From Nocardia wallacei (GTDB lineage Bacteria > Actinomycetota > Actinomycetes > Mycobacteriales > Mycobacteriaceae): a stretch of DNA of 43,049 bases. The position numbers and the translations under genes are program-made. This document shows, piece after piece, positions 6,001-30,919 of this stretch. The notes below the pieces were generated by a model, which made no database searches, was not told where the DNA came from, and saw only the letters and a list, made by a program, of their open reading frames with translations. Location of the stretch: positions 1 to 43,049 of the forward strand of contig NZ_JARWQD010000141.1 of assembly GCF_029869545.1 (NCBI RefSeq). The letters are read 5' to 3'. Position 1 is the first letter of the stretch. Every line of letters begins with the position of its first letter.

Positions 6001-9000
6001 AGACGCCGAGAACGGTTGGGCCTTCGAGGCTCTCGACCGCGGGGCCATCGACGTGGACGCGCTGCTGCACCGTGTCGATGTCCCGGGCGACATCGACGAC
6101 GCGGAGCTGAACCGCATCGCGAACGCGGAATACGATGCGGCACTGGGCCGTCTGGATCCCGCGAACGCCGCGATGGTGCAGTTCGTGTGGTTCGCCTTCG
6201 GGGCGACGGACCGTCCGGGCGTGCTCCTCATCGCGGCGCACCACTTCGTCATCGATGGTGTCTCGTGGCGCATCCTGATCCCGGACTTCGCCGTGGCCTG
6301 GTCGCAACTGGCCGCCGGACAGCCGGTGACACTGCCCGCGAACGGGACCTCGATGCGGCGCTGGGCACACGCCCTGGTCGAGTCGGCGTCCGAGCGCGAG
6401 TCGGAACTGCCGTTCTGGAAACAGGTTTCGGCCACGCCGGATCCGCTGCTGGGCTCGCGCGCGTTCGATCCGGCGGTCGACACCAACGCGACCGTGGACT
6501 CCGTGCGGGTGAGTGTGCCCGCCGCGGTGACCGACGCGGTCCTCACCGCGATTCCGGGCCTGTACCACGGCGGCGTGAACGACGGCCTGCTGTCGGCGCT
6601 GGCCATGGCCGTCGCGAAATGGCGTGGGGAGCAGTCCGGTTCGGCCGCACTGATCAAGCTCGAGGGCCACGGTCGCGAGGAAGAGGCGGTGCCGGGCGCG
6701 GATCTGTCGCGCACGGTGGGCTGGTTCACCAGCGTCTACCCGGTGCGGCTGGATCTCGCGGGTGCGAACCTGGCCGAGGCGTTCGCGGGCGGAGATGCCC
6801 TGGGCCGCATCGTCAAATCCGTCAAGGAACAGCTGCTGGGCGTCCCCGGTAAGGGCATCGGCTACGGCCTGCTGCGGCACCTGAACCCGGAGTCCGCCGA
6901 GCGCCTGCCCGACGCGGGCCAGATCAGCTTCAACTATCTGGGCCGCGTCTCCACCGCCGATGTCCCCGCGCAGTTCGCCGAGATCGGCTGGGTGCCGGTC
7001 GACGACCTGGGCGAGCTGTCCGCGGTGATGGATGCCCAGATGCCCGCCAACGCGACGCTCGACATCAACGCGATCGTCACCGACGGCGACGACGGCCCGC
7101 AGCTGGGCGCGTCGTTCGCGTTCCCGAGCGGTCTGCTCACCCGCGAGCAGGCGCAGGAGCTGGCCGATCTGTGGGTCGAGGCGCTCACCGCGCTCGCTGA
7201 GCACGCGCGCCGTCCGGAAGCCGGCGGCCTGACACCGTCGGATCTGCCGCTGGTGCGCGCCGCGCAGTCGGATATCGAGGTGTGGGAGCGGCAGTTCCCG
7301 GACCTGACCGACGTGTGGCCGCTGTCGAGCCTGCAGTCGGGTCTGCTGTTCCACGCCATGCTGAGCGCGGCGACGGTGGACGTGTACACCCAGCAGGCGG
7401 TCGTCGATTTCGACGGCACCCTCGACCTGTCGCGACTGCACAGCGCGGCGCAGGGCATGCTGGAGCGCTACCCGAACCTGCGCGCGGTCTTCGTCGCCGA
7501 CTCGCAGGGCGAGCCGGTGCAGATCGTGCTCGACAAGGTCGAGGTGCCTTGGCGGGAGGTCGATCTCACCGATCTGCCCGAGGCGGACCGGCGGCCGGAG
7601 CTGGAGCGGCTGCTCGAGGTGGATCGCCTCACCCACTTCGACATGACCACCTCGCCGCTGCTGCGCTTCGCGGCGTACCGCACCGGCGACGCGTCGTGGC
7701 ATCTGTCGATCACCGCGCACCACATCCTGTTCGACGGCTGGTCGATGCCGCTGCTGATGCAGGACCTGCTGGTGCTGTACGCGGTGCGCGGCGATGTGTC
7801 CGCGCTGCCGCGGGTCCCGTCGTACCGGAACTTCCTGGCCTGGCTGGCCGGGCGGGACCGGGATGCCTCGCTGCGGGCCTGGGCGCACGCGCTCGACGGC
7901 ATCGATGAGCCCACCGTGCTGGCCCCGCTGCCCAAGCCGGACGAGACCTACGAGATGGACAAGCAGGTCGTCCACCTCGATGCCGAGTACACCCGCCGGG
8001 TCTCCGAATTCTGCGCCGAGCTCGGGATCACCGTGAACACGCTGGTGCAGGCGGCCTGGGGTGTGCTGGTCGGCCGCATCACCGGTCGCGACGACGTGGT
8101 GTTCGGTGCCACCGTCTCCGGTCGTCCGGCCGAACTGCCGGGCATCGAGTCGATGGTGGGTCTGTTCATCAACACGCTGCCCGTGCGGGTGCGCATCGAC
8201 GAGCAGGCGAGCGTCGCCGAGCTGCTGACGAGTCTGCAAGGGGCGCAGGCGGATCTGCTCGACCACCACCACGTGGGTCTCGCCGATATCCAGCGGGTGG
8301 CCGGTATCGGCGCGCAGTTCGATTCGCTGCTGGTATTCGAGTCGTATCCGGTGGACAAGGACACGATCACCGCCGCGAGCGCGATCGACGGGGTCTCGGT
8401 GGTCGGTGCCGGAATGACCGGTGGCACGCACTATCCGATGACCCTGCTGGTCAAGGCCGAGCAGACCATCGAGATCGTGCTCGAGCACCTGCTGAGCCGT
8501 TTCGGCACCGACGAGGTGGCGACGCTGGCGGCGCGGCTGCGGCGGATCCTGGACGAGCTGCTGGCCGGGGCGGGCCGCCGGGTCCGCGATCTCGACATCC
8601 TCGAGCTCGCCGAGCGCGACCGAATCCTGGTGGAGTGGAACGACACCCGGGAGCCGGTGGACGCGGAACTGCTGCTGGACGGGTATCGCCGTGCGGCGGC
8701 GGAGCATCCGGATCGGATCGCGGTCGCCTACGAGGGCGACGAGCTGACCTACCGGGAGTTCGACGAGCGGGTCAATATCCTGGCGCGCCGGTTGATCTAC
8801 CAGGGTGTGGGTCCGGAATCGCTGGTGGGCCTGGCGATCCGGCGTTCGCTGGATCTGGTCGTGGGCATGTACGCGATCGTCACGGCCGGTGGCGCGTACG
8901 TGCCGCTGGATCCGGATCATCCGGCCGAGCGCATCGCGCACGTGCTGGAGACGGCGCAGCCGGTGTGCGTGCTGACCCGGACCGCGGATCTGGTCGAGGT

Positions 9001-12000
9001 GCCCGAGGGTGTCGAGGTCATGAACCTGGACACCGTCGACCTGGACGGATTCGACGGCACCCCGATGCGGTCCGACGAGCTGCTCGCGCCGGTGCACCCG
9101 GAGAATCCGGCGTACGTGCTGTTCACCTCGGGCTCGACCGGACGCCCGAAGGGTGTGGCCGTCTCGCACGCGGCGATCAACAACCAGATCACCGTCATGC
9201 TGCGGGCCTATCCGATGACGCCGGAGGACGTGTACCTGCAGAAGACGCCGACGACGTTCGACGTCTCGCTGTGGGGCTACTTCATGACGCTGCGCGCGGG
9301 GGCGAAGCTGGTGGTCGCCACCCCCGACGGCCATCGTGATCCGCTGTACCTCGCGGAAACCATTGCCGCGCAGGGCGTCACGTTCACCGACTTCGTGCCC
9401 TCGATGCTGACCGTGCTCGCCGCCCACACCGCGCCCGGCGCCATGCCGACGCTGCGGACGGTGTTCGCGGCCGGTGAGGCGCTGCCGCCGGAGACCGTGC
9501 AGGCGGTGCACGCGATCTCGGATGCCGCCGTGCACAACCTGTACGGGCCGACCGAGGCCGCGATCACCGTGGCCCACTGGACCGCGACGGGCACCGAGAG
9601 CCCGAGCGTCCCGATCGGCCGCCCGGAGATCAATTCCCGCCTGTACGTGCTGGATTCGCGGTTGCGTCCGGTGCCCGCCGGGGTCGTCGGCGAGCTGTAC
9701 CTGGCCGGTGACCAGCTGGCGCGCGGGTACATGCGGCGCCCGGATCTGACCGCGGATCGGTTCGTAGCCAACCCCTTCGGGGGGATGAACGGCGGCGGGG
9801 CCGCGGGCGAGCGGATGGATGGTGGCGGGGCCGCGGGCGAGCGGATGAATGGTGGCGGGGCCGCGGGCGAGCGGATGTATCGCACCGGTGACCTTGTGGT
9901 GTGGCGTGACGGTGGTGTGCTGGAGTACATCGGGCGCGCCGACTTCCAGGTGAAGTTCCGTGGTCAGCGCATCGAGCTGGGGGAGATCGAGTCGGTGCTG
10001 CTGGCGCAGCCGTCGGTCAGCCAGGCCGCCGCCCTGGTGGTGCCGTCCGAACTCGGCGACCAGCTCGTGGTCTACGCGGTGCCCGCACCCGGCGCGCGGA
10101 TCGAACAGGCGCCGCTGCTCGAGGCGGCGATGCGGAGCCTGCCGACCTACATGGTGCCGTCGCAGGTCATCGCGCTGGAGGCGTTCCCGCTCAACCCGAG
10201 CGGCAAGCTGGACCGCAAGGCCCTGCCGAAGCCGACCTTCACGCAGCGGGAGTTCCGCGCGCCCGCCACGCCGATCGAGGAGATCGTCGCGGGCGTCTTC
10301 GCCGAGGTGCTCGGCGTGGAGCGGATCGGTGCCGACGACGACTTCTTCGCGCTCGGCGGCAACTCGCTGATCGCCACCCAGGTCATCGCGCGCGTCGGCG
10401 CCGCGGTGGGCACCCGGGTGCCGGTGCGGGCGCTGTTCGAGCGGTCGACGGTCACCGGTTTCGCGGCGGCGATCGAATCGCAGACCCGCGATTCGGGCGC
10501 GCCCGCGCTGGGCACTCTCGAACGGCCGGAACGGATTCCGCTGTCGCTGGCACAGCAGCGCATGTGGTTCCTCAACCGGTTCGATCCGGAGTCCGCGGCC
10601 TACAACGTGCCCATGGCGGTGCGGTTGACCGGTGAGCTGAACGTGGCCGCGCTGCGCGAGGCGATCGGTGACGTGGTGGCCCGGCACGAGGTGCTGCGCA
10701 CGGTGTACCCGGAGGTCGACGGCGCACCCGTGCAGGTGATTCTGCCGGTGGCGCAGGCGGTTCCGGAGCTGGAGCTGCGCACGGTCGCGCCGGACGCGAT
10801 CGAGTCCGCGGTGATCTCGGTGGTGTCGACGTCGTTCGATGTCACCAGCGCGGTGCCGCTGCGGGTGGCACTGTTCGAGATCGACGGTGCCGTAGGCGAA
10901 TACGTCCTGGCGATGGTGGTGCATCACATCTCCGGCGACGGTTCCTCGATGGCCCCGCTGACCCGCGACGTCATGACCGCCTACGCGGCGCGCGCGGCCG
11001 GAGAGCCGCCGAGCTGGGCGCCGCTGGCGGTGCAGTACGCCGACTACAGCATCTGGCAGCGCGCGCTGCTGGGCAGCGAGGACGATCCGGAATCGTTGTC
11101 CGCCAAGCAGATCGCGTACTGGCGTGCGGCGCTGGCCGATCTGCCCGACCAGCTGGATCTGCCGTCGGATCGCCCGCGCCCCGCGGTGCAGTCCTTCGCC
11201 GGGGCCAAGGTCGGGGTCGAGATCGACGCCGAGCTGCACCGGGCCCTGCACGAGTTGGCCCGGGGCGAGAGCGCGACGCTGTTCATGGTCGTGCATACGG
11301 CGTTCGCGGTGCTGCTGTCGCGGTTGTCGGGGACCGAGGACATCGCGATCGGCACGCCGATGGCGGGTCGCGGTGAGCGCGAGCTGGACGATCTGATCGG
11401 CATGTTCGTCAACACCCTGGTGTTCCGCACGCAGGTGGACGCGGGCGCGTCGTTCACCGAGCTGCTGACGCGGCAGCGGGAGTCGGATCTACAGGCGTTC
11501 GCGCACGCGGATGTGCCGTTCGAGCGGCTGGTCGAGGTGCTCAACCCGGTGCGCTCCACGGCCCATCACCCGCTGTTCCAGGTGGGCCTGTCGTTCCAGA
11601 ACCTGGGCCGGACCAGCCTGGAGCTGCCGGGCCTGAGCCTCTCGGGCGTGGACTACGACACGCAACTGTCGCAGTTCGATCTGCATCTGATCGTCTCCGA
11701 CGGCTATGACGAGTCGGGCGCACCGGCCGGTATCGGCGGCGTGCTGACCTACGCCACCGACCTGTTCGACGCCCCGACGGTCGAGCACTTCGCCGAGCGC
11801 TTCGTGCGCCTGCTCCGCCAGATCGTCACCGCCCCGGCGACGCCCGTGGGCGATCTGGAGCTGCTCGCCGACGGCGAGCGCGCGAACCTGGTTATGGGCT
11901 GGAATGCCACCGGGCACGAGGTCGATCGGTCGCTGACGCTGGTGTCGCTGCTGGAGCGGACGGTGTCGTCGACTCCGGACGCGGTGGCGCTGGTCGGGCC

Positions 12001-19272: not shown

Positions 19273-19344
19273 GGGGACGGGGTGCGGGAAGCGTTACTAC
19301 GCGGCGGTACTCGAATGGCGTTTTTGCGTCATGGCCGGACTCGG

Positions 19345-19356
19345 GTAGTGCACTAC
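19345..19356. promoter_or_regulatory. 12-bp perfect palindrome upstream of the haloperoxidase
   Basis: GTAGTGCACTAC is a perfect palindrome about 110 bp upstream of the haloperoxidase start. It is AT-richer than its surroundings and could be a dimeric-regulator site. Short palindromes also arise by chance, so this is weak. Confidence 0.3.
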
Positions 19357-19467
19357 TGCCGAAATTCTCGTGTGGGAGGTGCATGCTCGGAAGCAGAGGG
19401 CAGTTCGACGAGTCGCCAAGCTCCTGCGGGCCGGTATTGCGACCAGACCCCACGACTAGGAAGACAA

Positions 19468-20889
19468 GTGGATCAGATCCTGTACTGGAACAGTGTGGCG
19501 CTCGAATCGGATAGGTTGGCGCACACCGTCATTCGCCACGGAGAGCGGGGCGTGCGCGGGCCGGTCGGCAGTTCTCGCGCGCTGGCGATCACCCACCTCG
19601 CCATGCACGACGCCTACTTCGGTCTCGTGCCCGCCGGGCACGGGACCTATCTGACCACCCTGCCCCTCGTCCCGCCCGACGCCGCCGCGGACGCGGCGAT
19701 CGCCGTGGCCGCCCACACCGCCCTCACCACCCTGTATCCCGCGCAGACCGCACGGCTGGACGCCGCCCTGCAGCAGGCCGGATTGCACGGCCCGGGCATC
19801 GGCTCCGGCAGCGCCTACGGTCTGGCCGTCGCCCACGAGATGCTGGCGGCCCGCGGCGCCGACCCGGACCTCGGCGACACCGGCTACGAACCCGAGCCCG
19901 GCGACCTGAAACACCGTGTGGATCCGGCGAATCCGGGCCAGGGCTACTACGCGCCGCATTACGGCGCCCGCTCGCATTGCTTCGCGGTGACCACCCGCCA
20001 CACCCTCGACGCGCCGCCCAAACGCACCGACCCGGCGTACGAGGAGGCGCTGCGCGAGGTGCGCGGCAAGGGCATCGCGACCGACCGGATCGGCACCCTG
20101 CCCCAGGGGGTGTTCCCGCGCACGCCGGAGGAGACCCTGATCGGCCTGTTCTGGGGATACGATGCGGCCAAGGGCATCGGCACCCCGCCGCGGCTGTACA
20201 ACCAGATCGTGCGCGCGGTCGCCGCGACCCGACCGGCCCGGCTCGCATCGCATGCCCGATTGTTCGCCCTGATCAACGCCGCCATGGCGGACGCGGCCAT
20301 TCTGGCCTGGGACGACAAGTACCGTCACAACCTCTGGCGCCCGGTGCTCGGAATTCGCGAGCACGATCCGTCGGTCGGACCGAAAGGTGCAGTGGCACAG
20401 GGCTTGGACCCCCAGTGCGATCCCTTCTGGCTACCGCTGGGCGCGGCCCGCACCAACGAGCCCGGCGCGGCTCCCGGCACACCGGCGTTCCCGTCCTACC
20501 CCTCCGGCCACGCCACCCTCGGCGCGGCGGCCCTGCAGATCGCCCGCCGCTTCTTCGGCATCACCACCGACGGGCCCGACAACCTCACCGACGCAACGGT
20601 ATTCGTCTCCGACGAACTGGACGGCGCCGCACTCGACCGGCACGGCGTGCAGCGGCCCCGGCACGCGCGCACCTTCCCCGGTGGCCTGTGGCAGATGATC
20701 GAGGAGAATGCCCGCAGCCGCGTATTCCTCGGCGTGCACTGGCTTTTCGACGCCTTCGCCACCGATCCCGCGGGCCGCGTGGACCTGGCGCAGAACATCG
20801 GCGGCGTCCGCCTCGGCCTGGATATCGCGGCCGATATCTGGGCGAACGGCCTGAAGCAAGCGGCCGCCGCCGGACCACGCCGATCCTGA
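19468..20889 (+). CDS. Vanadium-dependent haloperoxidase (PAP2 superfamily)
   Basis: A 473-residue enzyme of the vanadium haloperoxidase/acid phosphatase fold, which uses vanadate and H2O2 to oxidise halides. The vanadate pocket is complete, with the residue spacing of the fungal chloroperoxidase: K284 and R291 in KYRHNLWRP, S346-G347-H348 in PSYPSGHAT, R418, and H424 in SRVFLGVHW. W281 and F341 occupy the positions of the chloroperoxidase Trp and Phe near the halide site. I chose GTG 19468 because the typical N-terminus (DQILYWNSVALE) begins there; the longer upstream frame is arginine-rich and unlike the family. No signal peptide or Tat motif is visible, so it is probably cytoplasmic. No obvious partner gene is adjacent. 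A haloperoxidase or vanadate-sensitive phosphatase activity cannot be separated by sequence. Confidence 0.88.
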   Translation: MDQILYWNSVALESDRLAHTVIRHGERGVRGPVGSSRALAITHLAMHDAYFGLVPAGHGTYLTTLPLVPPDAAADAAIAVAAHTALTTLYPAQTARLDAALQQAGLHGPGIGSGSAYGLAVAHEMLAARGADPDLGDTGYEPEPGDLKHRVDPANPGQGYYAPHYGARSHCFAVTTRHTLDAPPKRTDPAYEEALREVRGKGIATDRIGTLPQGVFPRTPEETLIGLFWGYDAAKGIGTPPRLYNQIVRAVAATRPARLASHARLFALINAAMADAAILAWDDKYRHNLWRPVLGIREHDPSVGPKGAVAQGLDPQCDPFWLPLGAARTNEPGAAPGTPAFPSYPSGHATLGAAALQIARRFFGITTDGPDNLTDATVFVSDELDGAALDRHGVQRPRHARTFPGGLWQMIEENARSRVFLGVHWLFDAFATDPAGRVDLAQNIGGVRLGLDIAADIWANGLKQAAAAGPRRS

Positions 20890-20930
20890 ATCACCCGTGC
20901 CGCAACGGTGCTCACAGTCATCCGCCGCGG

Positions 20931-21054
20931 CTGCAACGCGCTCATGGATATTCCGGCGTGACTGCAGCGTACTGATGGATGTTCCGGCGTCACTGCAGCG
21001 TACTGATGGATGTTCTGGCGCGGCTGCAGCGCGCTCATGGATGTTCCGGCGCGG
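20931..21054. repeat. Four tandem 31-bp repeats between haloperoxidase and atzF
   Basis: Units start at 20931, 20962, 20993 and 21024, each exactly 31 bp, with the shared core CTGCAGCG and ATGGATGTTCCGGCG. A degenerate fifth unit may precede them at 20900-20930. They lie in the 356-bp gap between the convergent haloperoxidase and atzF genes, which holds no gene. There are no unique spacers, so this is a minisatellite (VNTR-like), not a CRISPR array. Confidence 0.85.
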
Positions 21055-21149
21055 TTTTGGCCGGAATCCACTGCGGCGAGGTATGGATCCCGACCAAAGG
21101 CATGCCGGGATAGCTGGGTCGACGGATCACGCCGTTGCCGCACCCGTTG

Positions 21150-21197
21150 TTGGTTCCCGCACCCCTTGCAGGTCCATGTAGGGGGTGCGGGAGCCAA
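21150..21197. terminator. Dispersed palindromic element, copy 2 (probable bidirectional terminator)
   Basis: Arms of 16 nt (TTGGTTCCCGCACCCC and GGGGTGCGGGAGCCAA) pair with one G-U mismatch around a 16-nt loop. It lies 48 bp beyond the atzF stop, between two convergent genes, where a bidirectional terminator would sit. Its core matches the element at 19231-19272, including GCAGG and CATG in the loop. No U-tract follows, as is common in high-GC actinobacteria. Confidence 0.6.
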
Positions 21198-21245
21198 CAG
21201 GGCGTGCGTAAACCGGCCGCGTTAGCTGCACTGTCTGGCGGGGTG

Positions 21246-22871
21246 TCAGACCGCTCCGGCGGCGAGGGCGGACCGCCAGCCGCCGTGCTCGCTGATGTCC
21301 TTGGCGGCGGCTGCGGCGGCGGGGTCGCAGCTGAAGGCGGTTACCCAGGTGCCGTCGTCGAGTTCGACGGCGCCCAGTTGCATAGGTGCGGGGAGCGCGC
21401 TGAGGAAGCGGCCGAGGGCGGCGGGGGAGAGCACCCAGCGCTCACCGGCCACGGAGACTCCGGCCTCGCCGTCGGGGCGGCGGGTCACGGCCGGTTTCGG
21501 CGGCGTGGTGTCGAGCGCGCCCAGCCGGTAGCGCGGTGCGGTGCGAACGGGCCCGGCCCACCGGGCGCCGAGATCGGTGAGCTGATGTTCCAGCGGCTGC
21601 CCGCGCAGATGGGCACCGAAGACGACCAGCTCGTGCACGGGCGCCACCCGAGACGGCCATGCCGGGTCGGCCGGTTCCGCAAAGCCCTTGTCGCCGTGGG
21701 AAATCAGAGACGCGATATCCAACGCGACGGCGTCCTCGAAGGCGCGGGCGAAAACGGTGACACCGAACTGCGCGTCCCCCGCGGTGCCCGCCGGTACCGC
21801 GACGGCGCACAGATCGAACAGATTGCAGAAGTTCGTATAGGTCCCGACCCGGGAGTTCACGCCGATCGGATCGGCCGCCACCTCGGCGATGGTGGGATGC
21901 AGCGGGGCGGTCGGCGCGAGCAGGGCGTCGGCCCCGGCGAGGCTCGCCATGGCCCGGCCGCGCAGCCGTTGCAACTCGGCGAGGTCCGATACCAGCCGAT
22001 GCGCGGGAATGTCGCGGGCCGCCCGAATGATCGCCGCGACGGTCGGGTCGACCGCATCCGGGTGCTCGTCGACGAATTCACCGACCGCGGAATACCTTTC
22101 GGCGACCAGGGCACCGCCGTACAGCAGCCGCGCGGCTGCCAGAAACGGCTCCGGGTCGACGGTCACGATGCGCGCGCCCCGCTCCCGCAGTGTCGCCACG
22201 GTGTGCTCGAAAGCCTTGTGCCACAGCGGGTCCAGATCACCCAGCGAATCGAACACCGCGACAGTGGGTTCCGGCGGGGCGGCCAGCCGGGTATCACACG
22301 GCCAGGCGCGGTCGGAGGCGGTGGCCAGCGCGCTCATGGCCCGATTCGCCAGGGGCAGATCCGCGGCGAAGATCGTGACGCAGTCGTAGGAGCGGCAGGC
22401 GGGCACGACACCCTCGGTGCTGATCGCTCCGACGGTCGGCTTGATTCCGACGATCCCTTGGAAGGCGGCCGGGACCCGTCCCGATCCCGCCGTGTCGGTC
22501 CCGATCGCGATATCCGCCTCGCCCAGCGCCACCGCCACCGCGGACCCCGAACTCGAACCACCGGACACGAATTCGGGACGCAGCGCGTTGGGGACCACGC
22601 CGTACGGCGATCGCGTCCCGACCAGGCCGGTGGCGAACTGATCGAGATTGGTCTTCCCGACCACCACGGCCCCGGCCGCGCGCAGCGCCGCCACGGCGGG
22701 CGCATCGTGGCCCGGAACGTACGCGTACTCGGGACAGCCTGCGGTCGTGGGGATTCCGGCCACGTCCACATTGTCCTTCACCGCCAGCCGCAACCCGGCG
22801 AGCGGCCCGCGTGCCTGTGCGATCTCGGCAGCAACCTGTTCATCGGGCCGTCTGTGAATCCATACGCTCAT
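21246..22871 (-). CDS. atzF: Allophanate hydrolase
   Basis: A 541-residue amidase-signature enzyme that cleaves allophanate to ammonia and CO2, the last step of urea or guanidine breakdown through carboxylated intermediates. The triad is visible as K32 (VKDNVDV), the cis-Ser in GGSSSGSA (104-111) and the nucleophile S130 ([13 protein letters not shown]). The N-terminal amidase domain is followed by a full AtzF-type C-terminal domain (from about 420, beginning near [15 protein letters not shown]). AGGAGA precedes the ATG at 22871. It is the last gene of the minus-strand operon, 88 bp after the carboxyltransferase gene. Confidence 0.93.
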
Positions 22872-22959
22872 GTGCTTCTCCTATGCTGTTCGTCGCTGGC
22901 CTACGTGCGGGCCGAGCGCACCGGTTCGCCGGTCTGTCACTGAGTATCGGGAATCACAG

Positions 22960-23991
22960 TCATCGCCCCGCCCCCGTCAGCTCACCCGCCGCATGCCAGG
23001 AATTGCGCTCGGCGGCAAAGGCTTCCGACTGTCGGGCACGGAACTCGGCGATGGTCGGGGCATTGCTCTCGAGGAACGACCGGTGATCGGCGAGCCGGAA
23101 CTCACCGTCCTCGGCGTCCGAACGGCCCCGTCCCGCGGCCACATCGGCGCGCAGGTCCAGCAGTTCGTCGGCCGAGACCGGATACCAGCGAATACGGTCG
23201 AAATACCGTAGCAGCCAGGGATTTTCACTCACCTCTCCCGTACGGCGCGATTCGCCGAAGGACCGGTGATTCCATACCTGGGTGGTCCGGCCGACGAATT
23301 GGTACCCACCGGGTCCCTCCATACCGTAGATGCACAGGTACGCGCCGCCGATCCCCACCGCATTCTCCGGAGTCCAGGTGCGGGCCGGGTTGTATTTGGT
23401 GGTGACCAGGCGGTGGCGCGGGTCGGTCGGGGTGGCGACCGGTGCGCCCAGGTACACGTCGCCGAGCCCGAGCACCAGGTACTCGGCGGCGAACACGGTG
23501 TCGAAAACCTCTTCTACGCAGGACAATCCGTTCATCCGGCGAATGAACTCGATATTCCAGGGGCACCACGGCGCATCGGCCCGCACGCCGTGCATGTACC
23601 GGGTGATGGCCTCGCGGGTCGCCGGATCGTCCCAGGACAGCGGCAGCCGCACGGTGCGGCTGGGCACCACGAGCTCGTCGGAGGGCGGCAGCGCCGACTC
23701 GGCCTCCGCCAGCAGGGCGAGCAGTTTCACCGTCGGCAGCCGGTCCGGATCGGTGCGGACCTGCAGCGACCGCACGCCGGGAGTCAGCTCGGTGATTCCC
23801 GGTTCGCGCCGTTGCAGCAGATGCTGGTGCAGCGCGTGCACCCGCGCCCGCAAGCCGAGGTCCAGTGTCATATCGCCGTATTCGACGAGCACACCGTCGT
23901 CGCCTTGACGCCTGTAGGTGACCGCGGTGGTGTCGTCCGCCTCGCCGCGGGCCAGCACACCGTCGTCGCCGTCCCCGCCGGTCGACAGCAC
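22960..23991 (-). CDS. Urea/guanidine carboxylase carboxyltransferase half, AHS1/KipI-like
   Basis: A 343-residue AHS1 (KipI-type, CT_C_D) domain. Stretches such as [34 protein letters not shown] and [14 protein letters not shown] follow urea carboxylase rather than stand-alone 5-oxoprolinase subunits. In full-length urea carboxylase this domain lies after AHS2 and before the biotin carrier domain. Here the protein stops at the point where the carrier would begin; no biotinyl Met-Lys motif follows before atzF. The frame is identical to that of the upstream AHS2 gene and is separated from it by one TAG codon; the likely restart is GTG 23991, two codons further on. AHS1 and AHS2 together form the carboxyltransferase active site, so the two products must act together. 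Confidence 0.85.
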
Positions 23992-23997
23992 GAACGG

Positions 23998-24963
23998 CTA
24001 GCCCGCACGCCGGGCGGGCCCGAGCGCGCGCGGGGAGGCGGCGCGATCGGCCCGCACCGCGACGAATCGCACCGCATCACCGGGGGTCAGCTGCCCGAGC
24101 TTCCATCGGTCGGCGGCGACGACGGTGACCGGGCAGACGAACCCGCCGAGGCTCGGGCCGTCGGGACCCAGCAGAATCGGGGTGTCACCGGTGAAGTCCA
24201 GTGCGCCAACGGAGTACGCGTTGTCGTGAATATTGGACGGATGCAAACCTGCCTCGCCGCCGTCGGCGCGCGCCCACTGCGGCTTCGGCCCGATCAGCCG
24301 CACCCCCGTGCGATCGGAGTTGAAATGCACCTCGTAGTCGGTGCCGAGAATGGTGTCGAAGTCGTTGCGGGTGAAGAACTCCGGCGCCCCGTGCGGTCCC
24401 TCGGTGACGGCCAGTTCCCACCGGCGGGCGAAAACCGGCTGCTCCTCCGTCGGGACCGCGGCGGCAATCCGCCCGTGCGCGCGGCCGACCGGCAGGACAT
24501 CCCCGGCCCGCAGCGCGTTCCCGGTATCGCCGCCGAACCTTCCCAGCGTGAAAGTGGCTGCGCTGCCGAGATATTCGGGCATGTCGATACCCCCGGCGAC
24601 GAGGACATAGCACCGCATCCCCGGCCCGGCGACCAGCCCGATGTCCAGCACCCCACCGGCGGGCACCTCGACGGGCCGCCACTGCGGCACGGCGACACCG
24701 TCGACGGCGACCGGGGCCGGGGCGCCCGTCACGCACACCCAGGTCGGTGCCGAGAACCGCAGCGCCGGACCACCCAGCGTGCACTCGAGCCCCGGCGCAC
24801 CCTCGACATTGCCGACCGCCCGATTCCCGAGCCGGAACGACAGATCGTCCATGGGCCCCGAGGGCGGCACGCCCACATGCCAGTACCCGATCCGCCCCGG
24901 CCAGTCCTGCACGGTCGTCATCATCCCCGGCCGCACGACCTCGAATTCGGCGCCGCCGGTCAT
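23998..24963 (-). CDS. Urea/guanidine carboxylase carboxyltransferase half, AHS2/KipA-like
   Basis: A 321-residue AHS2 (KipA-type, CT_A_B) domain. [20 protein letters not shown] near the N-terminus and [22 protein letters not shown] and [10 protein letters not shown] further on match the urea carboxylase version. In the complete enzyme a biotin carboxylase of roughly 450 residues precedes this domain; here the ATG overlaps the previous gene's stop (ATGA), leaving no room for it. The gene ends in TAG at 23998-24000, after which the same frame continues into the AHS1 domain. Either the enzyme is split and a carboxylase and carrier come from elsewhere in the genome, or this is a reduced form. 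Guanidine is the more likely substrate given the DUF1989 neighbours (inference). Confidence 0.85.
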
Positions 24964-25601
24964 GAGCGCGTCACGACCATGCGCACCGGCGTCGGGTCGA
25001 ATCCGTTGCAGGGGTTGTTGATCTGCGGGCAGTTCGACACCAGCACCAGGGTGTCCCGCTCGGCGCGCAGTGTGACCTTCTTGCCGGGCGCCGACAGCCC
25101 GTCGACGATGCCGAGGGTGCCGTCGGCCTCCACCGGGACGTTCATGAACCAGTTGATATTCGATACCAGATCCCGTTTCCCCAGACCCCACTTCAGGGCC
25201 TCGGTCAGGAAGTTCTCCACGCAGGCGTGCTGGTGGCGGGTGTGATGGCCGTAGCGCAGCGTATTCGACTCCTGTGAACAGGCGCCCGCGACGGTGTCGT
25301 GGTTGCCGACCTCGTCGGCGATCACGGTCATGAGTGCCGCACCCGAATCCGTGCGCAGCACGCTGCCGGTGGTGAGGAAGATGTTGCGCTGCGCGGCGAC
25401 GGTGGCCTGCGCGCTGTAGCGGTCGCTGTGATCCGCGGCCGAATACAGCAGGCAGTCCACGGCCTGATTGCCGTGCAGGTCGATGATCTCCAGCCGGTCC
25501 CCGGCCGCGACCACCGCCGACCACGGCGCCCGGGCGGGGACGGTCTCGTCCCGGACGACAGTGCCCGCGAGGGCGCCGGATCCGTTCGCTGCCTTGTTCA
25601 C
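24960..25601 (-). CDS. DUF1989 urea-carboxylase-associated protein (carboxyguanidine deiminase-like subunit)
   Basis: A 213-residue DUF1989 protein. Conserved stretches are [44 protein letters not shown] and [12 protein letters not shown], with Cys/His residues suited to metal binding. Proteins of this pair, long called urea amidolyase-associated proteins, are now known from other bacteria as the two subunits of carboxyguanidine deiminase, which converts carboxyguanidine to allophanate. I do not assign A or B. GTG 25601 is the start: GGAGG stands 7 nt upstream, and it overlaps the previous stop by 4 nt (GTGA). Its own stop overlaps the next ATG by 4 nt, so translation is coupled on both sides. 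Confidence 0.85.
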
Positions 25602-26350
25602 GAGTACACCTCCGGGGTGAGTGCGGCGTGCCAGGCCCGCTCGGTGTTCTCCACGGCACGCAGGTATTCGGGATCGGTGTTGTGTTGCCGCGCAAGCTCT
25701 TCCGGCGCCCTCCAGGCGACGATGTCGAGATCGGTCGGGGGAGTGGAATCGAGCGGATGCGCGGCATTGGCGATCAGTAGTGTCACCGGCAGGTGCGTCA
25801 GCAGATCGACCGCCGCCCCCGCGCCCGCCCCGCCCGACACCACCAGGCCGCCGTCGGATTCGACCCGCACACCCCGGAAGAACGACACCGTCGGGCCGAT
25901 ATCCCGCGGTGCCAGACCATGTTTCGCACCGGCCAGCCGCAATGCCTGTCGCGCCGCCGCGCTCGGTCCGCACAGCGCGTCGTGCCGCCGCGACGAGTCG
26001 GCGACCACGGTCGCCAGCACGCGCCCCTGATCCGAGAGCAGCGGATGCCCCGCACCGAGGTACGCCTGCCACGGCACCTTCACCGTATCGGCGACATTCA
26101 GTCGCTCCCAAGGCGATTCGGACCGCACCAGCAGGACGTGCGCGCACGCCGCGCCGTCCGGATCCCGCAGCCGCACCCGGGTGCCGCGGCCCAGCACCAC
26201 ATTCGCGTACCCATCGGCGGGAAGCCGCTGTGCGAAGGTGATTTTCGCGGAGTCGACGTCCCCGGGGAGGTCGGGTCCGTCGATCGCCGCCCCGGCCGCC
26301 TGGGCGCGGGCATGGTCGCGCGCCCCGGTGGTCGATGCCGTACTTGTCAT
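25598..26350 (-). CDS. DUF1989 urea-carboxylase-associated protein, second subunit
   Basis: A 250-residue DUF1989 protein, the partner of the following gene. Visible family features are [60 protein letters not shown] and [15 protein letters not shown]. It starts with ATG at 26350 behind AAGGGA. The final TGA overlaps the next gene's GTG. With its partner it probably deiminates carboxyguanidine. A 424-bp gap separates it from the upstream permease gene, so it may have its own promoter in addition to the one at the operon head. Confidence 0.85.
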
Positions 26351-26470
26351 CAGAATTCCCTTCTCGAAAGATGTATCGACGCCCCGCCGGTCCGGGACCT
26401 GCGGAATCCCCGGGGCCGGGGCGGCTCACCACCACGGCCCGCCCACGCCATCCGCCGTCGACTACGGCGG

Positions 26471-26618
26471 CGATCAACGGGGGGCACGCACGGATGCCCC
26501 ACGTCGTTCGACCGCTTCATCGATCAACAGGGCGAGCACGGGACGCCCAGCGCCGTCGGACCGTCTCAGCGATCAGCAGGGCGAGTGCAGGACGCCCGAA
26601 TATGGTGGGCCGCAACGA
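26471..26618. repeat. Three imperfect ~50-bp tandem repeats within a 424-bp gap
   Basis: The gap 26351-26774, between the permease stop and the first DUF1989 start, holds no convincing gene in any frame. In its middle, three units start at 26471, 26521 and 26570 with CGATCAACGGG, CGATCAACAGGGCGAG and CGATCAGCAGGGCGAG, each continuing into GGAC/GGATGCCC. Units 2 and 3 agree over about 28 bp; unit 1 is more diverged. They may be a leader or spacer structure before the deiminase genes, or simple minisatellite drift. I see no guanidine riboswitch here. Confidence 0.65.
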
Positions 26619-26774
26619 TTTCGATACCTGCGTCACACGCTCGCCTGTCTCGGCCCGTCCGGAGGTGTTCCTCCGCAGCGCCTTCCGGAGCCTCGAGATC
26701 GCTTGTGCGGTGCGTCCTTCGGATGGTCGGTCGCGGGTGCCTCGCCGCTGGTCCATGGGGTATCGCCTCGGCGC

Positions 26775-28307
26775 TCAGGCGGGCTGGACTGCGGGAACGG
26801 ACCGACGTGCCGGGCCGGTGGCCGATATCCGGTACACCACCATCCCGACCGCGACCGCCGCCGCGACGAAAAGCGGAGCGGCCCAGAGCATCCACCACGA
26901 TCCACCGTCGGGTGCGTACACCTCCCGCCGCGGCCAGGCGAGGTTCACCGACATCGCGATACCCCACACCACCGCCAGCGCGTTCAGCGGAATCCCGAAG
27001 CGCCCCAGCGAGAACAGCCGCTCGGGCACCGCAGGATCGGCCGTCGGCCACCCGGTGATCCGGCGTATCAGCAGCGGCGCGGTGACCAGCAGGTAGGCCA
27101 GGTAGAACGTCACGATCCCGACGCTGGCGAGGGTCGCGAAGATCGCCGCATTGCCGAGATTGACCACCAGCAGCGCGATCCCGAGCACGCCGACCACGAC
27201 GGCCGGAAGGATCGGAGTGCCGAAGCGCGGGTGCACGACCGACAGCCGACGCGCGAACGGCAGCTTTCCGTCGCGCGCCATCGAGAACAGCAGCCGCGAG
27301 GCGGCGGTCTGAATGGCCAGCGTGCAGACCAGGATCGCCACCGCGACGCACCCCAGCAGCACCTTGCCCGCGGGCGTGGACAGCTTCGCCGAGATCACAT
27401 AGGCCAGGCCCTCGCTCGCGAGCCGACCGTCGTCGAGGCTGGGCGCGGCCATCAGCGCGCCGAGCAGCATCAGCACCCCGCCGATCCCGGACACGGTCAG
27501 CGCGCTGAGGATCGCCCGCGGTGCCACCCGGCGTGGATTCCTGGTCTCCTCGGAAAGCTCACCGGCGGAGCCGAATCCGACCATGACATAGGCGGCCATC
27601 AGCCCCGACACCAGGAACGCGGCCCAGTACGGCCCGGGCGCCGCGTGGCCGGTATCCAGCACCACCGACGGCCCGCGATCGGCATGGGTGAACAGCACGC
27701 CGACGGTGGCGAGCACACCGACGATCTCGACGGTGACTCCGACGGTGTTCAACCGCGACATCCAATCGATGCCGACCACGTTCACCGCGGTCGTCAGCAT
27801 CAGCAGCACGCTGCCCAGCAGCACGGCGTTCATGGCCCCCGACCGCGAGGTCAGCGCCGTATCCTCGCCGACGATCTGGAATCCACTCCAGATCGACGGC
27901 AGCACCACCTGCAGCGCAATCGCCGCGGCGGCGGCCGTCAGGATCTGCGCGATGATCATCATCCAGCCCGCGAACCAGCCGATGGCCTCGCCCGCCAGCC
28001 GCCGCGACCACTGGTAGATCGATCCCGAGATCGGGTAGTGCGCGGCCAGTTCGGCGAAGTTCAGGGCCACCAGGAACTGCCCGGCGAACACGATCGGCCA
28101 GGTCCAGAAGAAGGCGGCGCCGCCGAATCCGTAACCGAAGCCGAAGAACTGGAAGATCGTGGTGAGGATGGAGACGAAGGAGAATCCGGCCGCGAAGGAG
28201 GCGTACCGGCCGAGCTTGCGGTGCAGGACGGGCTGGTAGCCGAATCGTTCGAGGTCGGCGCTGTCGGAACCGCCGGATTCGGCGGGCGGGGCAAGGGTGG
28301 TGGCCAT
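26775..28307 (-). CDS. APC-family amino acid/amine permease
   Basis: A 510-residue APC-superfamily transporter with about 12 hydrophobic segments. FSFVSILTTIFQFFGFGYGFGG, NFAELAAHYPISGSIYQW and GFGSAGELSEETRNPRR are typical of the family, the last including the conserved acidic-basic loop. The C-terminus is short and basic. I chose ATG 28307 (MATTLAPPAE) behind AAGGA; the longer frame runs through the operator and is not credible. As first gene of the minus-strand operon it probably imports the substrate, guanidine or a related amine (inference from the neighbours). Its promoter region contains the palindrome at 28432-28451 shared with the divergent TetR gene. Confidence 0.9.
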   Translation of the reverse strand: MATTLAPPAESGGSDSADLERFGYQPVLHRKLGRYASFAAGFSFVSILTTIFQFFGFGYGFGGAAFFWTWPIVFAGQFLVALNFAELAAHYPISGSIYQWSRRLAGEAIGWFAGWMMIIAQILTAAAAAIALQVVLPSIWSGFQIVGEDTALTSRSGAMNAVLLGSVLLMLTTAVNVVGIDWMSRLNTVGVTVEIVGVLATVGVLFTHADRGPSVVLDTGHAAPGPYWAAFLVSGLMAAYVMVGFGSAGELSEETRNPRRVAPRAILSALTVSGIGGVLMLLGALMAAPSLDDGRLASEGLAYVISAKLSTPAGKVLLGCVAVAILVCTLAIQTAASRLLFSMARDGKLPFARRLSVVHPRFGTPILPAVVVGVLGIALLVVNLGNAAIFATLASVGIVTFYLAYLLVTAPLLIRRITGWPTADPAVPERLFSLGRFGIPLNALAVVWGIAMSVNLAWPRREVYAPDGGSWWMLWAAPLFVAAAVAVGMVVYRISATGPARRSVPAVQPA

Positions 28308-28431
28308 GGGCGGGAGTCCTTCGGCGTCGTGGCCAATATCTATCGGGTGAAAGTTTTGCAATCGCGTGCGGCGCGGTGGTGACGTCGATGTATCGGTCCC
28401 GGGACGCCGGGTAACTTCTGTGTTGCCCAAG

Positions 28432-28451
28432 TTTCTGTCGTATGACAGAAA
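28432..28451. promoter_or_regulatory. TetR-type operator palindrome
   Basis: Perfect 8-bp arms TTTCTGTC and GACAGAAA with a 4-nt spacer GTAT. It lies between the divergent permease (start 28307) and TetR gene (start about 28508), so one bound dimer could control both. It is AT-rich inside GC-rich DNA, typical of a real operator. A smaller palindrome, GTCCCGGGAC (28396-28405), lies nearby on the permease side. Confidence 0.75.
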
Positions 28452-28507
28452 TCTCACGGCCGCGGACGCGCCGAAATTCGGGATCGCCGATAGGCAAGAA
28501 TGGAGCC

Positions 28508-29176
28508 GTGACGCAACTCGGACCCGGCCGACCGCGCCTCGAGCCGCGGCGTCGCCAGGGGCAGACGCCGCGCGCCGAGATCCTCGATGCCGCCGCGGAA
28601 TTGTTCACCACCAAGGGTTATGCGAGCACCTCCACCCGCGGCATCGCCGATGCGGTGGGCATCCGCCAGGCCTCGCTGTATCACCACTTCGCCGCCAAGG
28701 ACGACATCCTCGACGCGCTGCTGGACGAAACGGTCACCGGCCCACTGGAATTGGCGGGCAGGCTGCGCGCCGAACCGGAGTCCGCGCAGGTGCGACTGTA
28801 TGCGCTGGCCTGGTTCGATGTCCGCCAATTGTGCGCGGCCCGATGGAATCTCGGCGCGCTGTACCTCTTGCCGGAGCTGCGTTCGGAGCGGTTCGAGGCA
28901 TTCCGGCTGCGCCGCCAGGAGCTTCGCGGGCACTACGAACACCTGGCCGACGAGGTGATCGGCGCCGTCGGCGCGCCCCGGGTGAGCGGGGCGCGGGTGC
29001 TGCCCTTCCGGCTCGTGGAGAGCGTCATCAACATCCGCTCCGATGAGGGGGCATCGCCCGAATACGCCGAGCGGCTGATCCCCGACGCCGCGTTGCACAT
29101 GTTGGGCTGGTCCGGTGACCAGGAAGCGATCCGCGCCGCAGCCGACAGTTTGCTGCAGCGCCTGGCCGGGTCCTGA
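28508..29176 (+). CDS. TetR-family regulator of the guanidine/urea operon
   Basis: A 222-residue TetR regulator. The N-terminal helix-turn-helix is TSTRGIADAVGIRQASLYHHF followed by KDDILDALL; the rest is a helical ligand-binding domain without a motif I can assign. GTG 28508 starts just before the usual basic N-terminus (GPGRPRLEPRRR). An in-frame ATG at 28442 lies inside the operator palindrome and is less likely. It is divergent from the permease operon with the palindrome between, the standard layout for a local repressor. The ligand may be guanidine, urea or a carboxylated intermediate (inference). Confidence 0.85.
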   Translation: MTQLGPGRPRLEPRRRQGQTPRAEILDAAAELFTTKGYASTSTRGIADAVGIRQASLYHHFAAKDDILDALLDETVTGPLELAGRLRAEPESAQVRLYALAWFDVRQLCAARWNLGALYLLPELRSERFEAFRLRRQELRGHYEHLADEVIGAVGAPRVSGARVLPFRLVESVINIRSDEGASPEYAERLIPDAALHMLGWSGDQEAIRAAADSLLQRLAGS

Positions 29177-29290
29177 CCTGGCTGCCCGCTGCACCCGCCC
29201 GCATTTGGCGAATATCTGGCAAACGACTCGTAGACTGGATGGCGCACGAGGTTCTTCGACGGCATTCCCAGTCGACGGCGGGAGTTGTGC

Positions 29291-30919
29291 ATGGTGGACG
29301 CGGGGCTCGATTCATCGCTGCAGCAGGACCGCAGGCGCTGGTTCGCGCTGGCGGCACTCGCGCTGGGCCTGGCCATGGTGGTTCTCGACAGCACCATCGT
29401 CGGTGTCTCGCTGCCGGTGATCATTCGCGACCTGGGTCTCGACTTCACCCAGGCGCAGTGGGTGACCAGCGTCTACGCGGTGGTGTTCGCCGCGCTGCTG
29501 ATCACCGCGGGTCGCCTCGGCGACCGCTTCGGTCGGCGCAAGATCTTCGCCGCGGGCGTGGTGCTGTTCGTCGCCGGTAGCCTGCTGGCCGCCGCCGCGG
29601 ACGATCCCTCGACGCTGATCTGGGGTCGCATCGTCCAGGGCATCGGCGGTGCGGGCGTGCTGCCGGGCACGCTGTCGACGGTCAACGCCGTCTTCCGCGG
29701 CCGCGACCGGATCATCGCCTTCGCGGTCTGGGGCTCGGTCATGTCCGGGGCGGCCGCCGTCGGGCCGCTGCTCGGCGGCTGGCTGACCACCAGTTTCACC
29801 TGGCCGTGGATCTTTCTGGTGAACCTGCCGCTCGGGCTGCTGGTGCTGGCCGGGATCGTGCTGTTCGTGCCGGAAACCCGGGCCGACACCCATGCGCACG
29901 GCCTGGACGTCGACGGATTCCTGCTCAGCGCAGCGGGTTTCGCGCTCGTGGTGTTCGCGCTCATCGAGGGCCAGACCTACGGCTGGTGGCAGCCGCTGCG
30001 TGAGTTCCACCTCTTCGGGCTGACCTGGTCCACCCGCGCCGCGAGTTCGCCGATTCCGCTCATGCTGGTGGTGGGTGTGGGGCTGCTGGTGCTGTTCGTG
30101 CTCTGGGAGCGGCATCGTGCGCACGTGAATCGCTCTGCGCTGCTGGATCTTTCGCTGTTGCGGATCCGAGGGTTCCGGTGGGGCAACACCGCCGCGTTCG
30201 CCGTGGCGCTGGGGGAGTTCGGCCTGCTGTTCGTCCTGCCGCTGTACATGGTGAACGTGCTCGGAATGTCCACGCTCCGAAGCGGTCTCGTGCTTGCCGC
30301 GATGGCCCTGGGCGCATTCCTGGCCGGTGCCGCTACCGAGAGGCTGGCGAAGTCGTTCGGCCCGGTGCGGATCGTGCGGATCGGCCTGGCGATCGAGGTG
30401 GTGGCCGTGGCGGTGACCGCGCTGTTCGTCTCGCCGGATGTCTCGCCGTGGCTGCTGGCGGTGCTGCTCGCCTGTTACGGCGTCGGGCTCGGCCTGGCCT
30501 CGGCGCAGCTCACCGGCACCGTGCTGGCCGATGTCCCGCCCGCGGCGTCCGGGCAGGGGGCCGCCACCCAGTCCACGGTGCGTCAGGTCGGCTCCGCCCT
30601 GGGCGCCGCGGTGCTCGGCGGGGTGCTCTCGGTATCGCTGGGGCGCATCCTGCCGAACCAGCTGGGAGAGGTGGACGGGCTGCCGGACCGCGCCGCCGGC
30701 GAGGTCGCGACCGCGACCCGCGAATCCGCCGGTGGCGCCATCACCGCGCTGCGCGACCACGACGGCACCCAGGAGGTCGTAGACGCCCTGTCCCGCGGAT
30801 TCGCCGACGCCACCCGAATCACCATGCTCGCCGCCGCGGTATTCCTCCTGCTCGGCCTCCTGGCCGCCACCCGAATCCCGCTACGCGCCTCCGAAACCCC
30901 CGACGACCCACGCCCTTAG
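29291..30919 (+). CDS. MFS transporter, DHA2 (EmrB/QacA) family
   Basis: A 542-residue drug:H+ antiporter of the 14-helix DHA2 group. LDSTIVGVSLPVI is the helix-1 motif and GRLGDRFGRRKIF is motif A in the first loop; GPLLGGWLT is motif C-like. A long soluble stretch follows the central helices and another precedes the last helix (residues about 455-515). ATG 29291 stands 6 nt after GGAG. It follows the TetR gene in the same direction after 114 bp, so the regulator might also act on it, but no copy of the 28432 palindrome is seen in the gap. Confidence 0.9.
   Translation: MVDAGLDSSLQQDRRRWFALAALALGLAMVVLDSTIVGVSLPVIIRDLGLDFTQAQWVTSVYAVVFAALLITAGRLGDRFGRRKIFAAGVVLFVAGSLLAAAADDPSTLIWGRIVQGIGGAGVLPGTLSTVNAVFRGRDRIIAFAVWGSVMSGAAAVGPLLGGWLTTSFTWPWIFLVNLPLGLLVLAGIVLFVPETRADTHAHGLDVDGFLLSAAGFALVVFALIEGQTYGWWQPLREFHLFGLTWSTRAASSPIPLMLVVGVGLLVLFVLWERHRAHVNRSALLDLSLLRIRGFRWGNTAAFAVALGEFGLLFVLPLYMVNVLGMSTLRSGLVLAAMALGAFLAGAATERLAKSFGPVRIVRIGLAIEVVAVAVTALFVSPDVSPWLLAVLLACYGVGLGLASAQLTGTVLADVPPAASGQGAATQSTVRQVGSALGAAVLGGVLSVSLGRILPNQLGEVDGLPDRAAGEVATATRESAGGAITALRDHDGTQEVVDALSRGFADATRITMLAAAVFLLLGLLAATRIPLRASETPDDPRP

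Follow-up and report, generated by a model that had tools for sequence, protein, structure and literature searches.

The 43,049-nucleotide contig NZ_JARWQD010000141.1 of Nocardia wallacei (the window, always meant at its full length) carries on its minus strand an operon coding for the carboxyltransferase (CT) of a predicted guanidine carboxylase that comes without the biotin carboxylase (BC) and biotin carrier domains of such enzymes. This CT-only protein probably receives carboxybiotin in trans from an acyl-CoA carboxylase alpha subunit, probably one that serves fatty-acid synthesis and most likely of the AccA3 type. The AccA3-type subunit would make carboxybiotin from ATP and bicarbonate, the CT would transfer the carboxyl group onto guanidine, two DUF1989 proteins would deiminate the carboxyguanidine to allophanate, and AtzF would cleave the latter to ammonia and CO2; the permease would bring in the substrate. 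An earlier note on this DNA had proposed either such a split enzyme served in trans or a biotin-independent job for the CT. The split form is the better supported of the two, by purifying selection, by the catalytic residues that are kept and by the failure to find a BC of its own type in the genome; its partner is a putative one.

A carboxyltransferase without biotin carboxylase and carrier

The operon is transcribed in the order permease-UAAP1-UAAP2-AHS2-AHS1-AtzF, and family models identify on the minus strand all the genes that the earlier note had read there (transporter, two DUF1989 proteins, AHS2, AHS1 and atzF). AHS2, the N-terminal CT half (CT_A_B, PF02626; 23998..24963), and AHS1, the C-terminal half (CT_C_D, PF02682; 22960..23991, GTG start), match positions 448-754 and 786-1111 of the 1201-position model TIGR02712 with 480 and 474 bits, and the pair qualifies as the CT domain of guanidine/urea carboxylase. 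The ATG of AHS2 (24963-24961) does overlap the stop codon of UAAP2 (24962-24960), as had been noted. No TIGR02712 BC domain was found ahead of AHS2 in the operon, the AHS1 match stops at model position 1111, and no biotin carrier domain was matched in the window. The note was thus right that both outer domains are missing with the AHS2-AHS1 order kept. The whole-protein cut-off of TIGR02712 (1303.85 bits) is not reached by the window proteins, and the window CT is not a full member of this family: tests show two defining domains to be missing.

The genes around the CT belong to the same pathway type. UAAP1 (25598..26350; DUF1989, TIGR03425) and UAAP2 (24960..25601, GTG start; DUF1989, TIGR03424), both on the minus strand, are paired subunits of the carboxyguanidine deiminase type that score above their model cut-offs, with 210 bits (205.95) and 335.2 bits (284.7). 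Going by the pathway papers, we take TIGR03424 and TIGR03425 to be the carboxyguanidine deiminase CgdAB. The operon is completed on the same strand by an APC-type permease of urea-carboxylase systems (26775..28457; TIGR03428) and by the allophanate hydrolase AtzF (21246..22871; Amidase and AH_C domains, TIGR02713).

AHS2 and AHS1 share one frame. They are separated by a linker (minus strand, 23992..24000) in which the codons CCG and TTC stand between an in-frame TAG (24000-23998) and the GTG of AHS1. In relatives AHS2-AHS1 is one open reading frame and a single protein, of about 640-700 residues in most. The linker stop is found only in the window among 57 aligned CT-only rows, the 56 others having none; two other rows flagged by script have a stop at the C-terminal end, not in the linker. 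The CT gene of G014 lies in two contig pieces, of which L095, without AHS1, was left out and the fragment L096 was kept in the rows. The TAG may be a sequencing error of the draft, a true split into two subunits or a sign of early decay.

Catalytic residues, predicted substrate and selection

Guanidine carboxylases are described as having Asp at K. lactis positions 1330 and 1584 (PMC11410670), and Lys1605 is put forward as the general base of carboxyl transfer (PMC5770610). With the K. lactis positions placed by hand counting along the alignments, all three residues are kept in the window and in 52/52 CT-only rows of the family. The 1330-site Asp lies in AHS2 and the Asp1584 and Lys1605 equivalents in AHS1. 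The same three residues are present in all 47 named CT-only rows that hold both halves among the best 80 loci; the 48th row ends short of Asp1330, Asp1584 and Lys1605 or is not alignable. The window CT thus has both Asp residues of the guanidine type. The earlier note had left the substrate as guanidine or urea; based on the Asp at 1330, that of the predicted CT can be sharpened to guanidine. In the first 13 full-length rows, nine Asp1330 enzymes have adjacent UAAP genes and four Asn enzymes have none. The 31 named full-length rows divide into 29 with Asp and two with Asn at this site. L234 has Asp1330 without a UAAP match, but this locus begins near a contig end.

Conservation extends well beyond these sites. 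The window keeps 211 of the 213 columns that are invariant in 13 full-length enzymes, and the 52 CT-only rows keep 97.2% of them on average, within the range of 85-100% retained by full-length rows left out singly. Of these columns, 126 are unchanged in all 52 rows, 190 in at least 95% of them, and three are changed in more than half. Comparison of the window with eight to ten relatives from Nocardia gives median dN/dS ratios, rough values since synonymous sites are far diverged, of 0.145 for AHS1 and 0.141 for AHS2; the other operon genes give 0.103 (UAAP2), 0.176 (AtzF), 0.205 (UAAP1) and 0.243 (permease). Judging from these ratios, the CT is under purifying selection. A structure prediction for a fused N. 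nova relative reached a mean pLDDT of 60 from 16 rows, too poor for a fold search.

CT-only genes also occur outside the family, in two genomes each of families f4 and f56 and in one of f59. The f4 and f56 genes (L100, L101, L143 and L144) have Met or Ile at 1330 and keep Asp1584 and Lys1605, and UAAP-like genes and AtzF adjoin their CT; they perhaps act on another substrate. In L142, a lone CT-only gene of 714 residues (7302-9446) directly precedes an rpoB-like gene; its three catalytic sites are occupied by Ala, Glu and Arg, and one BC was found in that genome. Because the residues of the outlying f4, f56 and f59 genes differ, conclusions drawn for the family clade need not apply to them.

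Distribution and origin of the CT-only form

The comparison with related actinobacterial operons suggested in the earlier note finds the CT-only gene in 30 of 35 genomes of the same genus, with AHS2 77-85% identical, and additionally in G014 over two contigs; it was not found in G010, G015, G018 and G022. The 30 loci that were fetched have no match to a urea-carboxylase-type BC or carrier. In a sample of 301 genomes of the family, 207 have AHS2 (E up to 1e-60), and a urea-carboxylase-type BC (E up to 1e-128) occurs in 71, all among these 207. The remaining 136 have AHS2 and no such BC, and 48 combine this BC with at least two AHS2 genes. In a sample of the phylum, AHS2 occurs in 16 of 396 genomes. 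The absence of BC and carrier is a lineage trait, not a peculiarity of the window; the assembly error that the earlier note had considered does not account for AHS2 standing without such a BC in 136 of the 301 genomes.

A survey of named loci, taken as the best 80, comprises 48 CT-only loci, 31 full-length ones and one (L240) with a BC match but no carrier match. The CT-only loci, one of which (L202) is cut off after AHS2, belong to Nocardia, Rhodococcus/Rhodococcoides, Antrihabitans, Skermania, Mycobacterium/Mycolicibacterium/Mycolicibacter, Gordonia and Williamsia. Full-length loci come from Streptomyces, Actinoplanes, Arthrobacter, Lolliginicoccus and others, and include three Mycobacterium/Mycolicibacterium loci.

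A tree of 57 CT-only and 13 full-length sequences of the CT, 70 in all, built by a quick method without bootstrap and with long branches flagged, unites the 52 CT-only rows of the family in one clade (SH-aLRT 95) that adjoins full-length guanidine-type enzymes of the same family. The window AHS2 is 71-74% identical to these. The CT-only rows of f4, f56 and f59 are placed apart from the clade. Across the tree there are three changes of the label CT-only or full-length, and well-supported branches force two of them. Such a topology fits a loss of both outer domains, BC and carrier.

Candidate donors of carboxybiotin

The window genome (8.07 Mb in 399 contigs, 99.8% complete) was searched for the missing domains. 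A full-length urea or guanidine carboxylase serving the pathway from elsewhere, raised in the earlier note as the finding that would overturn its view, was not found in this genome. No urea-carboxylase-type BC was detected there at a threshold that catches such BCs. The one other AHS2 is a PxpC-like gene on C232, and AHS1 fragments lie at contig ends of C14 and C232. Seven BCs are present, with names assigned from length, domain order and similarity: a pyruvate carboxylase, an 1823-residue multidomain frame, a standalone AccC, two AccA3-like proteins, one AccA1-like and one of the C20 type. Identity of the seven to two urea-carboxylase BC domains is 41-54%, as against 61% between those two domains.

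The orphan BC that the earlier note had proposed to look for did not turn up: none of urea-carboxylase type was found in the window genome, nor among the 71 BCs of the 301 family genomes, 70 of which belong to open frames 1194 residues long or longer and the last (G090) to one that reaches a contig end. A split-off orphan BC gene as partner was rejected, none of the 71 being seen standing alone. This would leave only a multi-purpose alpha subunit as donor. The standalone AccC/AccB of the window genome (contig C68) was rejected as a dedicated partner: acyl-carrier-, oxygenase- and cyclase-like genes surround it, and no counterpart of it was the best match of any of 17 BCs in six other CT genomes. 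Read by eye, these surroundings of the standalone BC and standalone carrier (L029, 6474-19139) resemble a polyketide cluster.

Six AHS2 genomes with few BCs, none of the urea-carboxylase type, were compared, and their CT loci were read in G066, G077 and G075. G095 has pyruvate carboxylase, AccA3 and the C20 type; G077, G119, G075 and G196 each have AccA3, AccA1 and the C20 type. These sets rule out pyruvate carboxylase, AccA1, the multidomain protein and standalone AccC as general partners. An AccA3-type BC-carrier protein (at least 68% identity) is present in 18 of 22 genomes searched; it was not found in G066, G448, G717 and G466, the last three being of other groups. The C20 type occurs in 130 of the 136 CT-only genomes and in 59 of 94 genomes without AHS2, a difference confounded by lineage and genome size. 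In G349 (L108), an AccA1-like BC-carrier gene lies about 5 kb beyond AtzF, with its carrier match at the locus edge; no such gene was seen near the CT in any other CT-only locus mapped.

Mycobacterial AccA3 is reported to work with the carboxyltransferases AccD4, AccD5 and AccD6 (PMC5407890, PMC11001197); in PMC4347857, AccD4 and AccD5 are firmly found with AccA3, and AccD6 in one direction. As AccA3 is known to serve several carboxyltransferases, it is favoured as the donor for the CT, with the C20 type second. We raise tentatively, as a somewhat doubtful extension, that in Mycobacteriaceae the essential AccA3 of fatty- and mycolic-acid synthesis might also feed the guanidine CT, nitrogen scavenging and envelope lipids then competing for one carboxybiotin pool. 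As part of the same tentative idea, the split guanidine carboxylase might have arisen when two domains were dropped and the CT was coupled to a lipid enzyme.

Weighing the explanations

Several observations weigh against a predicted guanidine carboxylase supplied in trans by AccA3. No guanidine riboswitch reaches the gathering score in the window, a scan of 20900-29400 with E up to 5 giving two chance matches to miRNA families only, and none was found in the loci of 22 relatives (11 CT-only, 11 full-length); the guanidine assignment therefore rests on the residues and the deiminase genes. The association of Asp1330 with deiminase genes has exceptions in L242 (Asn, both UAAP genes) and L196 (Asp, no UAAP match), and the f59 CT-only gene is altered at all three residues. 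On the donor side, the CT-only genome G066, a single contig of 3.16 Mb, has only pyruvate carboxylase and the C20 type, AccA3 not being found, and the C20 type was not found in 6 of the 136 CT-only genomes (E up to 1e-145). One universal alpha subunit is thereby rejected for the genomes sampled. The main text of a mycobacterial carboxylase pull-down study contains neither "urea" nor "amidolyase" (PMC4347857). Last, the TAG could weaken or abolish the CT in the window strain.

Two side observations belong to these loci. L242 is the full-length enzyme of an Acidimicrobiaceae metagenome-assembled genome and has Asn1330 despite both UAAP genes adjoining. In G066 (L105, L128, L136), the AccA3 type was not found though a genome of the same genus has one.

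The biotin-independent enzyme of the earlier note would activate its substrate with ATP, or use CO2 from carboxyphosphate or carbamoyl phosphate, in the manner of PxpB/PxpC. These proteins share the AHS domains and are assumed, in PMC13274462, to phosphorylate 5-oxoproline with ATP; the mapped CT-only loci, L108 of G349 excepted, also have no match to a urea-carboxylase-like BC or carrier. Yet the window CT groups with urea carboxylase and not with Pxp: next to its TIGR02712 scores, it fails both the PxpB model (34.3 bits, cut-off 145.55) and the PxpC model (128.3 bits, cut-off 500), and all six operon genes are assigned to families other than PxpA, no search with a PxpA model having been made. 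It also keeps Lys1605, a site that aligns with Arg in the AHS1-like PH0987, and nearly all the columns invariant in its biotin-dependent relatives. We regard a biotin-independent role as unlikely and as weaker than supply in trans. Action on urea is less likely still. Databases label relatives as urea carboxylase or 5-oxoprolinase/urea amidolyase family protein, and L242, of the Asn type, shows that UAAP genes can stand beside such an enzyme; against this, the CT has Asp and not Asn at 1330, and UAAP genes accompany the nine Asp-type and none of the four Asn-type enzymes among the first 13 full-length rows.

Where a genome has both forms, the BC and carrier of the full-length urea carboxylase could serve the CT-only protein. 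The 48 family genomes with at least two AHS2 genes and a BC of this type would allow it, and AtzF seems to be shared between such loci: in 31 Nocardia genomes counted by hand, it adjoins the CT in 2 of 16 with a full-length urea carboxylase and in 11 of the other 15 (Fisher p 0.001). Sharing of parts between CT-only and full-length loci may thus be visible for the last step. As a source of carboxybiotin, this donor is inapplicable to the window genome and to the other BC-less AHS2 genomes, 136 of 207 in all, and we hold it to be very improbable. We give equally little credence to a decaying relic or an assembly error, in which damage removed the domains and left a functionless remnant. The in-frame TAG and the 399-contig draft speak for it, and a partial loss of function caused by the TAG in the window strain alone is possible; the 136 genomes with AHS2 but no BC of that type, the low dN/dS, the invariant catalytic residues and the single clade all speak against it. 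Supply in trans by an AccA3-type alpha subunit remains the explanation that we prefer.

Neighbouring genes and relation to known systems

A TetR-family regulator (PF00440; 28442..29176, plus strand) is divergent from the permease, a position occupied equivalently, by the gene numbers of Table 3 in PMC4222082, by amtR of N. farcinica. Elsewhere in the window, 19282-20889 codes for a vanadium chloroperoxidase-like protein (PF17897). By annotation the window operon is the AmtR operon, which is already known; nitrogen-starved M. smegmatis is reported to induce it, msmeg_2184 48-fold and msmeg_2187 3-fold (PMC4222082). Among the 120 matches listed of 7890, Nocardia relatives are named "5-oxoprolinase/urea amidolyase family protein" or "urea carboxylase", and these 120 have the two CT domains only. 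The literature searched, in which central works are not covered, gave no account of a CT-only guanidine carboxylase or of the missing halves, a weak absence.

If the CT-only proteins do belong to a split guanidine carboxylase, a large number of genes that now bear vague names gain a substrate. The AmtR nitrogen-starvation operon would then gain a likely purpose, with guanidine usable as a nitrogen source, and the interchangeability of BC-carrier modules would become testable with a substrate that is not a CoA ester. Should the CT work without biotin instead, it would represent a new way of activating guanidine.

The AmtR-regulated "urea carboxylase" operon of actinobacteria described in PMC4222082 has the same gene set by annotation (nfa22180-nfa22230 in N. 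farcinica). In section 10 of that paper the gene appears as a putative urea carboxylase, with no word on missing domains. The 5-oxoprolinase subunits PxpB/PxpC (KipI/KipA) likewise have domains of the AHS1 and AHS2 types and neither BC nor carrier, but the window CT is 39% identical to the PxpC-like gene of its own genome and far under the model cut-offs. Guanidine carboxylase of the form BC-AHS2-AHS1-BCCP (TIGR02712) shares with the window a homologous CT, the signature residues and the neighbours (two DUF1989 genes, AtzF and permease); it differs in having BC and carrier, for which no replacement of that type was found in the window operon or genome. The mycobacterial acyl-CoA carboxylases provide the analogy for the proposed mode of action, a single BC-carrier subunit, the shared AccA3, serving several CTs, as would be the case for the window. 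Unlike theirs, the window CT is of the urea-carboxylase type and its predicted substrate is no CoA ester. We propose that the CT-only form is a guanidine carboxylase variant whose mode of working resembles that of a multi-subunit acyl-CoA carboxylase.

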